Made by a program: the position numbers and the translations under genes. Positions 33,947-38,600 of a DNA stretch of 40,267 nucleotides are shown here, piece after piece (positions within the stretch are counted from its first letter, which is position 1; every line of letters starts with the position of its first letter). The stretch is from a virus. Below the pieces are notes generated by a model. That model worked only from the letters and a program-made list of their open reading frames with translations, had not been told where the DNA came from and did not search any database. The stretch lies in the IMG/VR virus record IMGVR_UViG_3300035670_010986, positions 1 to 40,267 of that record; one strand, given 5' to 3'.

Positions 33947-34368
33947 TGGCCCGCCGCCGCCCCGGACGCCTGCAGCGCATCGCCGCCTGGTTCGCTCGCG
34001 CCGACAGCGAACCGGCGTCGCGCCGCGACCGGGAAGACTGGGCGCCGGGCGACATGGCGCAGAATGTCGCCGCCTCGTGCTGGTTCGACCTTTCGGGCGC
34101 CCCCTCCCCCGGCCCCGCCAAGGGCGACGTGTACCGCGTCGTCGAAGTGCGGCTGACGATCAACCCCCGCTCCGGCGGCTATGACCGCTTTCTCCTGCTC
34201 TCGCATTTCGGGGAGCGCCTCTACGTCGCCCGCCATTTCCGGAAAGTCACCCCGCGCGCCGACGCCGCGCGCGCGGCCGATGCTGCGTTTGCCGAAACCC
34301 TGCGGCCGACCCCCGCTCCAGCCCTACCCCTTCCGCTTGTCGCTCGCCTGAAAAGGATCCTCTCATGA
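33946..34368 (+). CDS. Hypothetical early protein before ParB
   Basis: A 140-residue basic protein ([20 protein letters not shown]) with a middle beta part (VYRVVEVRLTINPRSGGYDR, FLLLSHFGERLYVARHFRKV). No family recognised. TGATG overlap with gapR and ATGA overlap with the ParB-like gene. Confidence 0.6.
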   Translation: MARRRPGRLQRIAAWFARADSEPASRRDREDWAPGDMAQNVAASCWFDLSGAPSPGPAKGDVYRVVEVRLTINPRSGGYDRFLLLSHFGERLYVARHFRKVTPRADAARAADAAFAETLRPTPAPALPLPLVARLKRILS

Positions 34369-36344
34369 CCAGTCGAACCTTCACCCATGCCGAGCTTCAC
34401 AAGTCCGAACTCAACGTCCGCACCAATGCCGAGGATGCCGAGGCGACCGCGGCGCTCGAAGCGTCGATCGAGCGCGTCGGGCTGATGCTGCCGCTGCTCG
34501 TCCACCCCGCCGGGCTGGACGCGCCGACCCCTTGGGGCGTGCTCGCCGGCGGCCGCCGCCTGCTCGCGATCGGGCGGCTGATCGCGGCGGGCAAGCTCCC
34601 CGCCGACTGGCCGATCCCCGCCAGGCTCGTCGATGGCCTGCCCAATGCCGAGATTACCGAAATGTCGCTCGGCGAGAATCTCCTGCGCCGCGACCTTCGG
34701 CCTTACGAGGTCCACGCCGCGATCGCCCACGCTTTCGCCCAGGGCGACAGCGTCGAAACCATCGCCGAAAACCTCGGCCAGGAAAGGGACTGGGTCCGCC
34801 GCCAGCTGCGCCTCGGCAAGCTCGCCGAGCCGGTCTTCGCGGCCTATGCCGCCGGCGATCTCTCGTTCGAACAGGCGTCGGCCTATGCCGCGACCGAGGA
34901 CACGGCGCTCCAGCTGTCGGTTTATGAGGCGCTGCGCGGCGAGCACAGCTATCACCACAACGCGGCGCGGATCCGCGCCGCGCTCAAGGTCGGCGATCGC
35001 GAGGCCGCGCGCCTGCTGCTCTTCGTCGGTGAAGCCGTCTATGTCGGCGCCGGCGGCATGATCGAGCCCGATCTGTTCGCCGACGGCCGCGACGCGCGCG
35101 TCCGCATCACCGACGAACCGCTGCTCCGCCGCCTGGCCGAGGAACGCTTCGCGGTCGAACGCGAGCGCGTCCGCGCGATCGCCAGCCGCCCCGACTTGCG
35201 ATTCGTCGCGCAGCCGCCGCAATTTTCGGGACGCACCGACCAGGCGCTCGAGATCGCGCTCGACCCAGGCAAGCTTCCCGCACACCGGTTCCCGACCGAC
35301 GCGATCGTCGCGACGATCGACGTCGACGACCATGGCCATCCGGTCACCCGCCTCTGGTGGGCGAACCGCACCGCCAAGGGCACCGGAGAAAAGCTCGGCG
35401 AGCGTGCCGCGGGCACGCCGCCCAACACCGCGGTGATGACGCCAAAGTCGGGCGAGGCTTTCGTCGGGCCCGACAGCGCCTATGCCCAGAACGGCCGCGC
35501 GATCGCGCGCGACGAATATGGCCTGACCGCCGACGGGCTGCAGCTTTTCCGCTCGCTTCGCCGCGCGCTGCTCCGCCGCCTGCTGATCGAACAGGGCGGC
35601 ACCGTCGCGCGCGACTATCTCGTCTGGTCGCAGGCGCGCGCGCTCGTCGGCCACGAACTCCCGGCACAGACCGGCGCTCGCGCGATCGCCGGCGAATGGC
35701 ACGACGGCGCCGATCGCGCGCCGCCCGGCCTGTTCGAGGGCTATGCCGGCGACGTTCCCGCCGAAAGCGACTGGATTGCCTGGGTCGACATGCTGAAGGC
35801 GCAGCCCTTCATGACCGAGAAGGATCCGGCGAAGAGCCTGTCGCTCTTCCTCGAGCTCGACCAGCCGGCAAAGGACAAGAGCGCCGCGATCGTCGCCGGC
35901 ATGGCGCTGCTGCGCTCGGCCGACACGCCGGGCTGGCGGATCGCCGCGCACGATGTTCTCGCCCACGCCTGCGGCGTCGACGCGAAAACGCTGCGCAGCT
36001 GGTGGACGCCGACCGCCAAATGGATCGGCTTGTTCGGTCGCCTCTACCGACTCGGCACCGCACAGCGTTTCGTCGACGCCGCGACGCACACCGGCTTCAT
36101 CCGCCTCAAGGATCCCGACCTCACCGACGCGACGCTCACCGCGCTCGATCCCGCTAACCACCGTGACCCCGACGCGCGCGACCACGCCGAACGCTGGCTG
36201 CCCGATCTGCTCGCCTTCGGCCCCGGTCCTGCGCCCCCGCCCCCGGCACCGGCGGCCGACCCGGCCCGTGAACAGCGCGAAAAGGTCAAGAAACAGCTGA
36301 AGGGCCGCGCCAACGCCGCCCGCGTTCGGGAGGCCGTCCAGTGA
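34365..36344 (+). CDS. Large ParB/Spo0J-like protein
   Basis: A 659-residue protein. The N-terminal ParB-nuclease fold is evident: ELNVRTNAEDAEATAALEAS, then GVLAGGRRLLAIGRL and NAEITEMSLGENLLRRDL (about residues 14-110), followed by an HTH region (DSVETIAENLGQERDWVRRQ). It is much larger than chromosomal ParB, with a long helical C-terminus of unknown role. No ParA is encoded, so it is unlikely to be a classical partition protein; plasmid and phage ParB-like proteins of this size are often implicated in regulation or DNA processing. Longest gene of the early operon. Confidence 0.88.
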   Translation: MTSRTFTHAELHKSELNVRTNAEDAEATAALEASIERVGLMLPLLVHPAGLDAPTPWGVLAGGRRLLAIGRLIAAGKLPADWPIPARLVDGLPNAEITEMSLGENLLRRDLRPYEVHAAIAHAFAQGDSVETIAENLGQERDWVRRQLRLGKLAEPVFAAYAAGDLSFEQASAYAATEDTALQLSVYEALRGEHSYHHNAARIRAALKVGDREAARLLLFVGEAVYVGAGGMIEPDLFADGRDARVRITDEPLLRRLAEERFAVERERVRAIASRPDLRFVAQPPQFSGRTDQALEIALDPGKLPAHRFPTDAIVATIDVDDHGHPVTRLWWANRTAKGTGEKLGERAAGTPPNTAVMTPKSGEAFVGPDSAYAQNGRAIARDEYGLTADGLQLFRSLRRALLRRLLIEQGGTVARDYLVWSQARALVGHELPAQTGARAIAGEWHDGADRAPPGLFEGYAGDVPAESDWIAWVDMLKAQPFMTEKDPAKSLSLFLELDQPAKDKSAAIVAGMALLRSADTPGWRIAAHDVLAHACGVDAKTLRSWWTPTAKWIGLFGRLYRLGTAQRFVDAATHTGFIRLKDPDLTDATLTALDPANHRDPDARDHAERWLPDLLAFGPGPAPPPPAPAADPAREQREKVKKQLKGRANAARVREAVQ

Positions 36345-36962: not shown

Positions 36963-37138
36963 TTTTGCCGCCTCCGCCTCCGCCTCCGCCCGGCTGGCTC
37001 GATGGTCCCAGGGGTCTGCTCCGCGCGCTCGCGATCATGCTCGCCGGCTGCCTTATCGGCGGCGGCCTCGCTGCCATCCAGAATGTCGCCCAACCCGCCG
37101 CGCAAGCGGCGCCAACGTTTCAACCCGAAGGAGAGTGA
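36959..37138 (+). CDS. 59-residue membrane mini-protein with polyproline start
   Basis: A GTG start in a GTGA overlap. The sequence opens ILPPPPPPPPGWLDGPRGLL and then has one membrane span (LAIMLAGCLIGGGLAAI). Proline runs with eight prolines may stall the ribosome and need EF-P. It is 2 bp before the repeat protein gene. Confidence 0.65.
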   Translation: MILPPPPPPPPGWLDGPRGLLRALAIMLAGCLIGGGLAAIQNVAQPAAQAAPTFQPEGE

Positions 37139-37140
37139 CG

Positions 37141-38118
37141 ATGACCAAGCATGAAGGGGCTACGCCGGCCAGCGGCGCGAGTTTCGATTTTACCTCGATC
37201 ACCGAAGTCCGGCTCGCGCCCGGCAGTCACAAGACGGCCGAAGAAGGCCTGTGCTTCATGGAAATGGTCGCCTGGTTCGCGGGCGAAAAGCACAGCGACA
37301 GTCCCGCCTGCGCCTCCCCGGTGCTCGGCCGATACGGCATCGTTATCAACGACAATGCACCCGACGAGCTGCGCGATCGGCTGCTGAAGCCGTTGGTCCC
37401 GATGATCGCGGGCACGCGCGGGACGTGGCAGGAGGAAGCCAACCGCGCGAAGTTCCTCGCGATGTGGGGCGTCAACAAGATCGCGCCCGTCTATTTGCGC
37501 GCGCTGGGTGAATTTTTCGGACCGGCCCACCGGGCCCGTCTCGATGCCTGGGCATCGCAATGCGAGGCGGCGCGCAGCGACGCCGAGCTCGAGGCAATCG
37601 CTCGGGCCGCTCTGGCCGATCTGGCCGATCTGGCCGATCTGGCCGCTCGGGCCGCTCGGGCCGCTCTGGCCGATCTGGCCGCTCGGGCCGATCTGGCCGC
37701 TCGGGCCGCTCTGGCCGATCTGGCCGCTCGGGCCGATCTGGCCGCTCTGGCCGATCTGGCCGATCTGGCCGCTCGGGCCGCTCGGGCCGCTCGGGCCGCT
37801 CGGGCCGCTCTGGCCGATCTGGCCGCTCGGGCCGCTCGGGCCGCTCTGGCCGATCTGGCCGATCTGGCCGCTCGGGCCGCTCGGGCCGATCTGGCCGATC
37901 TGGCCGCTCGGGCCGCTCGGGCCGCTCTGGCCGATCTGGCCGATCTGGCCGCTCGGGCCGATCTGGCCGCTCGGGCCGCTCTGGCTCGCGATCAGGTTCT
38001 CGAACTGATGGTCGAGGGCCTTCGCCAGGCCATCCTGATCGGCCCGCACGAGGGCTTCGATGTGATCGTCGATCTCCACGCGCGCCATCAGGCGCTGCGC
38101 GAACTGGTCGCCGCGTGA
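37141..38118 (+). CDS. Repeat protein with 43 three-residue units
   Basis: A 325-residue protein. Residues 1-145 form a conserved domain (EEGLCFMEMVAWFAGEKHSD, CASPVLGRYGIVINDNAPDE, ANRAKFLAMWGVNKIAPVYL) of a family of unknown function known from phages, plasmids and actinobacteria, where it is often followed by Ala-rich repeats. Residues 154-282 are 43 units of the form ARA, ALA or DLA. The C-terminus (VLELMVEGLRQAILIGPHEG) is a normal helix. The repeat probably forms one long helix. ATG is 2 bp after the previous gene. Confidence 0.85.
   Translation: MTKHEGATPASGASFDFTSITEVRLAPGSHKTAEEGLCFMEMVAWFAGEKHSDSPACASPVLGRYGIVINDNAPDELRDRLLKPLVPMIAGTRGTWQEEANRAKFLAMWGVNKIAPVYLRALGEFFGPAHRARLDAWASQCEAARSDAELEAIARAALADLADLADLAARAARAALADLAARADLAARAALADLAARADLAALADLADLAARAARAARAARAALADLAARAARAALADLADLAARAARADLADLAARAARAALADLADLAARADLAARAALARDQVLELMVEGLRQAILIGPHEGFDVIVDLHARHQALRELVAA
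37600..37986 (+). repeat. 43-copy 9-bp minisatellite
   Basis: In-frame tandem units GCTCGGGCC (ARA, 18 copies), GATCTGGCC (DLA, 17) and GCTCTGGCC (ALA, 8); the last unit ends GCT. The units differ at two positions only; the fourth combination (GATCGGGCC, DRA) does not occur. On the minus strand the same tract reads as Gly-X-Y triplets (GQI, GPS, GQS), collagen-like. Copy number is likely to vary by slippage or recombination without loss of frame. Confidence 0.95.
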
Positions 38119-38600
38119 TCGATCTCTTTACCTGGTCGGCCGAAGCGCATGCGGCCGTCTCGGATCGGCGGGGCTTCGCCCCGCCGATCCAGCGCCGCTG
38201 CGCGGCGGATTCGATGTGGGCGCCGAGGCAACCCTCTCGGCCTCGACGCCTTCATCGCACCCGCCGCAAGAACAACCGGACACCGAAGGGCGCTGTCTAT
38301 GTCGGCCGCCCGACGATATGGGGCAATCCATTCGCCGATCGCGCGAAGATCGGCCACAAGCGCAGCGTCATCCTCTTTTCCGCCTGGCTGCGCGGCGACT
38401 GTTCGCCCCGGGTGTTGAAGGCAGCGGGCTTCACCCGCGCCGAAATAGCGACACTCGAACGCCGCCGCGCTGTCCTGCTCGAACGGCTCCCCCGGCTTGC
38501 GGGCAAGGATCTGCAATGCTGGTGCCCGACCAGTTCGGAATGGTGCCACGCCGATGTGCTGCTCGAGATCGCCAACGCCAGCCAAAGGGGCTGTGCATGA
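38115..38600 (+). CDS. DUF4326-family protein
   Basis: A 161-residue protein whose C-terminal two thirds fit DUF4326: NRTPKGAVYVGRPTIWGNPF, then QCWCPTSSEWCHADVLLEIA. Its function is unknown to me; it occurs mainly in phages and plasmids. The GTG at 38115 overlaps the previous stop (GTGA), but the first 33 codons contain two perfect hairpins and are not part of the domain, so ATG 38214 is an alternative start. Confidence 0.8.
   Translation: MIDLFTWSAEAHAAVSDRRGFAPPIQRRCAADSMWAPRQPSRPRRLHRTRRKNNRTPKGAVYVGRPTIWGNPFADRAKIGHKRSVILFSAWLRGDCSPRVLKAAGFTRAEIATLERRRAVLLERLPRLAGKDLQCWCPTSSEWCHADVLLEIANASQRGCA
38162..38207. repeat. Two adjacent perfect hairpins (REP-like)
   Basis: A 13-bp perfect stem GGATCGGCGGGGC / GCCCCGCCGATCC with a TTC loop (38162-38190), then CGCCGC-tgc-GCGGCG (38193-38207). 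No T-tract. They are inside the start of the DUF4326 frame and could limit its translation, stabilise upstream mRNA or be a REP-like insertion. Confidence 0.6.

Follow-up and report, generated by a model that had tools for sequence, protein, structure and literature searches.

A 9-bp in-frame repeat tract in a phage early gene, and relatives that carry other alanine-rich repeats in the same position

The question raised by this locus is why an early gene of a phage carries 43 nearly perfect copies of a 9-bp unit within its reading frame, and whether these copies matter as protein, as DNA or in neither way. We analysed the whole of a 40,267-bp IMG/VR virus record (the window), whose genes include an integrase, a CII-like regulator, a terminase, a portal, a tape measure and AlpA, indicating a temperate tailed phage. 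The preliminary description had assigned the tract to a phage early protein, and the gene does sit in the early region of this phage.

The repeat gene and its tract

The features at and around the repeat gene are as follows.
34365 to 36344, plus strand: ParB-like gene, upstream of the repeat gene in the same early region
37120 to 38088, minus strand: antisense open frame of 322 codons with a Gly-X-Y run, probably not a gene (Pfam Collagen, PF01391, 2.5e-18)
37141 to 38118, plus strand: repeat gene of 325 codons, with GGAG before the ATG, made up of an N-domain, the Ala-rich repeat and a C-terminal segment
37141 to 37599, plus strand: conserved N-domain, predicted all-helical (G-x-H...G-x-C-x-M-E...H-S-D-x-P-x-C...N-D...R; family alignments, AlphaFold)
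37600 to 37986, plus strand: in-frame tandem repeat of 43 x 9 bp, ARA/ALA/DLA units (TRF, unit count, predicted helices)
37987 to 38115, plus strand: conserved C-terminal segment (RDQVLELMVEGLRQAILIGPHEGFDVIVDLHARH...)
38115 to 38600, plus strand: DUF4326 gene, next after the repeat gene and overlapping its stop (Pfam PF14216, 4e-19)

The ParB-like gene is faced by an antisense frame of 654 codons (34221 to 36185, minus strand), and such frames are common in the window. Immediately upstream of the repeat gene, a run of CCGCCT hexamers (36968-36990) codes for a stretch of Pro residues in a putative small membrane protein.

The tract occupies 387 nt, and 42 of its 43 units fit G[CA]TC[GT]GGCC exactly, the last one ending in GGCT; the coordinates, the count and the three unit types reported for this minisatellite thus hold. 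The units are ARA (18), DLA (17) and ALA (8), and the TRF score of the tract was 529-627, compared with 61 for the next-best array in the window. The fourth possible type, DRA, is missing from the window and from the relatives L009, L010 and L011, where 7.1, 5.6, 2.5 and 3.4 units, respectively, were expected (P = 3e-6, 8e-5, 0.01 and 0.005). It does occur in L075, a very distant possible family member (hhalign probability 26%, E 0.0007), with 6 units against 5.5 expected, and is therefore not excluded by the protein pattern. The order rule noted earlier, ALA followed by DLA, stood in the window (7 of 7 non-terminal ALA units; shuffle P = 0.0004) and failed as a general grammar, since the order is broken in L009, L010 and L011. 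The rule is therefore local to the window, where it probably came from duplication of a block of about 45 bp (TRF period 45). Given the broken order in relatives and the DRA units in L075, we rejected the unit grammar as a code.

Comparison of the N-domain between the window and L009, L010 and L011 revealed 68-69% amino acid identity and 48-57% identity at 4-fold sites, which is near saturation. Protein that is kept while 4-fold sites diverge is a hallmark of purifying selection on the sense frame, and the gene is real. In the N-domain, the Cys, Glu and Asp are invariant, and the His and Ser nearly so. The C-terminal segment is also conserved, with 70% identity in L003 despite a wholly different repeat there. 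The DUF4326 gene adjoins the repeat gene in L003, L009, L010 and L011 as well, and a ParB-like gene lies near it in the latter three. A survey of gene neighbours for function returned early DNA-metabolism genes, including RecT-like annealing proteins, exonucleases and DNA methyltransferases, and no constant partner except DUF4326, in the close clade only.

Database searches with the protein gave no match in Pfam (E<=1, which covers the DUF6745 domain, PF20530) or NCBIfam, and only 'unknown' groups in PHROGs. A PDB fold search with the N-domain gave no match, and the viral matches were uncharacterised; neither these searches nor Pfam/NCBIfam revealed an initiator or DNA-binding domain. AlphaFold predicted a confident all-helical N-domain (pLDDT ~90 or more over residues 21-150), followed by two long helices (147-217 and 222-298) with a low-confidence tip (pLDDT under 50), and a confident returning C-terminal arm. 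The helix proposed earlier for the tract is thus borne out by prediction, with an uncertain tip. The two tract arms may form a helical hairpin stalk, which we hold with less certainty because the prediction is of low confidence within the tract.

The tracts of relatives and of other phage proteins

An alignment search of IMG/VR identified 59 loci of this family. Nearly all of them carry an Ala-rich tandem repeat after the N-domain (~48-79% Ala), and the units range over ARA/DLA, AAWD/AARD, AYAS, VADA, ESAAR, ATYANAAAAA, DLAL/DLALDL and others. The DNA units in L002-L005 and L012-L066 differ from that of the window. In the family tracts, the repeat lags that lead at the DNA level are multiples of 3 nt, and codon choice hardly varies inside a single tract, which is what expansion and turnover of the tracts as DNA would produce. 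A single Ala codon, often an uncommon one in the flanking sequence, is used throughout at least 13 tracts; all 25 Ala codons of the L023 tract are GCC (flanks 10/29), and 67 of 73 in the L014 tract are GCT (flanks 0/27). On the N-domain tree of 56 members, the unit class changes at least 24 times, with classes assigned by eye. These comparisons indicate that the family keeps the position and composition of the tract but not its sequence.

Some relatives contain many Gly (L042, L040) or have non-Ala units, so not every member can be described as a single helical rod. The member at L053:3028-3861 carries a two-residue Leu/Asp/Ala repeat (DLALDLDLAL), and its AlphaFold model resembles that of the window protein in outline although the tracts are unrelated. 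In each of two near-identical pairs, L062/L065 and L024/L026, the only differences lie close to a contig end, which makes the pairs uninformative, and our search found no near-identical relative of the window. Among host genomes in the order of the Sphingomonas genome of L008, the N-domain was present in 2 of 399 and the 9-mer unit in none of 399; a relaxed unit was found in none of 398 genomes of the phylum. A search of named phages returned a single record, which is unannotated.

The same three 9-mers occur in the window (43 units), L009 (~40), L010 (~15) and L011 (33+), in different orders. The comparison of copy number that had been suggested therefore gave different counts of one unit. 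When the window unit was relaxed by one or two bases, it matched DUF6745 proteins, in which codon-homogeneous arrays of [AD]A[RLQMIS] triplets lie between an N-terminal segment and the DUF. Because these arrays spell the same kind of triplets with many different codon sets, the identical 9-mers of the window and L009-L011 are best read as a sign of shared origin. Their persistence beside saturated flanks possibly reflects exchange between phages or slow unit turnover.

Hypervariable triplet or 4-residue repeats were seen beside the DUF in L112-L191, L074, L083, L091, L094, L107 and L108, the 4-residue units of some members being SSLG, NLGD and QVRS. The near-identical phages L147 and L148 carry 31 and 50 triplets, respectively, with a gap of 171 nt (19 nine-base units) between flanks that are 100% identical over the compared 900 nt upstream and 2,400 nt downstream; both are metagenome assemblies, in which a collapse could mimic a deletion. 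Internal AARDAWDAW triplet arrays were also observed in two DUF7666-like proteins, L087 (reached with the same relaxed unit; sub-threshold Pfam match) and L097 (assigned by eye, no Pfam match). Across the tract units of DUF6745 and related loci, the residues that vary are often encoded by codons one base apart (W/R/G = NGG; L/R/Q = CNG; I/R = ANA; D/A/V/G = GNC), so that unit types differ at single bases.

Explanations of the tract

On balance, we think that the tract is probably a frame-safe, length-tolerant and Ala-rich spacer in an early protein, likely helical and driven by slippage or recombination. Strand slippage or unequal recombination would add or remove 9-bp units and leave the reading frame intact, and selection would maintain an Ala-rich, soluble, mostly helical segment of low complexity, whose exact sequence would be irrelevant. 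With less certainty, the two arms may pair as a hairpin stalk whose tip shifts as units are gained or lost; the tip would then move with unit number, so that the length could change while the contact between the N-domain and the C-terminal segment stays undisturbed.

A serious rival, though an unlikely one in our judgement, is that the tract is neutral filler without a role, in which expansion-prone, GC-rich DNA of Ala codons occupies an interdomain slot that tolerates any soluble in-frame insert. Mutation-driven expansion would indeed yield the wholesale replacement of units and the codon homogeneity described above. However, almost all relatives have a tract in spite of very deep divergence, where drift should often have lost it, and the Ala-rich composition persists where the DNA is unrelated.

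Less probable again is that several unrelated phage protein families have in common a site for a repeat cassette that can be expanded and exchanged, with the array DNA passed between phages and genes, or regenerated, independently of its flanks. If so, the same protein would differ in length and surface pattern from one phage to the next.

We also doubt, slightly more strongly, that the array acts as DNA, as a site of exchange or recombination or as a set of binding sites inside a gene whose protein merely tolerates it. Sites within a coding gene do exist, the lambda ori inside gene O being an example. A DNA role would suit the identical 9-mers of four phages whose N-domain 4-fold sites are only 38-57% identical, the presence of GCTCGGGCC/GCTCTGGCC in the DUF6745 gene of L074 as well, and the recombination and methylation genes among the neighbours. 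Yet there is no common site sequence, because the DNA units elsewhere in the family are entirely different and the codon sets of the DUF6745 arrays vary.

That an assembler made the repeat or its copy number is very unlikely. Contigs do end in or just before the tract in 16 of the 59 family loci, where 0.9 were expected, and in or just before the array in 37 of 80 DUF6745 loci; the tracts thus account for many broken phage contigs. As assemblies break there so often, short-read copy numbers are unreliable, length differences between metagenome assemblies may reflect collapsed repeats, and the exact count of 43 in the window may be wrong. Against an artefact, the same unit is present in L010 and in L009 and L011, prophage records that by their IMG/VR names seem to come from isolate genomes; all of these have an unbroken reading frame, and the longest exact repeat inside the window tract, 71 nt, is resolvable by 150-nt reads.

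The preliminary description had reported a Gly-X-Y run in a 322-codon antisense frame and had taken it for a probable by-product, and both statements agree with our results. The third codon of the unit, GCC, becomes GGC (Gly) on the antisense strand, and the first two become Ser/Ile and Pro/Gln, giving 42 triplets. The frame is open because this GC-rich phage seldom uses TTA, CTA or TCA; upon synonymous resampling of the window gene it had no stop in 62% of draws, and antisense frames of 659 and 1069 codons face other genes of the window. Despite the open codons and the Pfam Collagen match, we rejected an antisense gene for a collagen-like protein as extremely unlikely, since openness is expected from codon usage, the frame is not conserved, with 2-4 stops in L009, L010 and L011, and most family members have no Gly-X-Y run.

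Comparison with known systems

In-frame coding repeats are well known. What appears new in the literature searched is that a conserved position in a phage protein has had its repeat unit replaced again and again, and that at least two otherwise unrelated phage families, perhaps three, carry arrays of the same kind; the search found no paper on the repeat-gene family and none containing 'DUF6745'. If length or pattern matters, these genes would offer a natural system for asking how functional variety in phage proteins arises from repeat DNA.

The nearest working parallel is the poly-psi domain of NeuO from prophage CUS-3, a coding VNTR in an enzyme whose copy number varies by slippage (PMC3046976). 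Functional forms of NeuO differ in length only, and catalytic efficiency increases linearly as repeats are added; with a unit of 7 nt, most changes turn the gene off, and the repeat consists of N-terminal, disordered Lys/Arg heptads (PMC3046976). Both genes have a tandem repeat inside the reading frame, whereas the window repeat is 9 nt, always in frame, internal and Ala-rich, in a protein with no assigned activity. The DUF6745 proteins share the codon-homogeneous, Ala-rich triplet arrays and the contigs that break in them, but their flanking domains are unrelated to the window protein and some carry 4-residue units. In the Alacoil, an Ala-rich antiparallel coiled coil, the small Ala would permit tight and register-tolerant packing of helices; the window family has no solved relative, and pairing of its arms is inferred only. 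The collagen triple helix (PF01391) resembles only the antisense strand of the window, in a Gly-X-Y frame that on present evidence is not a gene. The window tract differs from lambda O-type iterons in that its DNA unit is not conserved among the relatives of the window protein.
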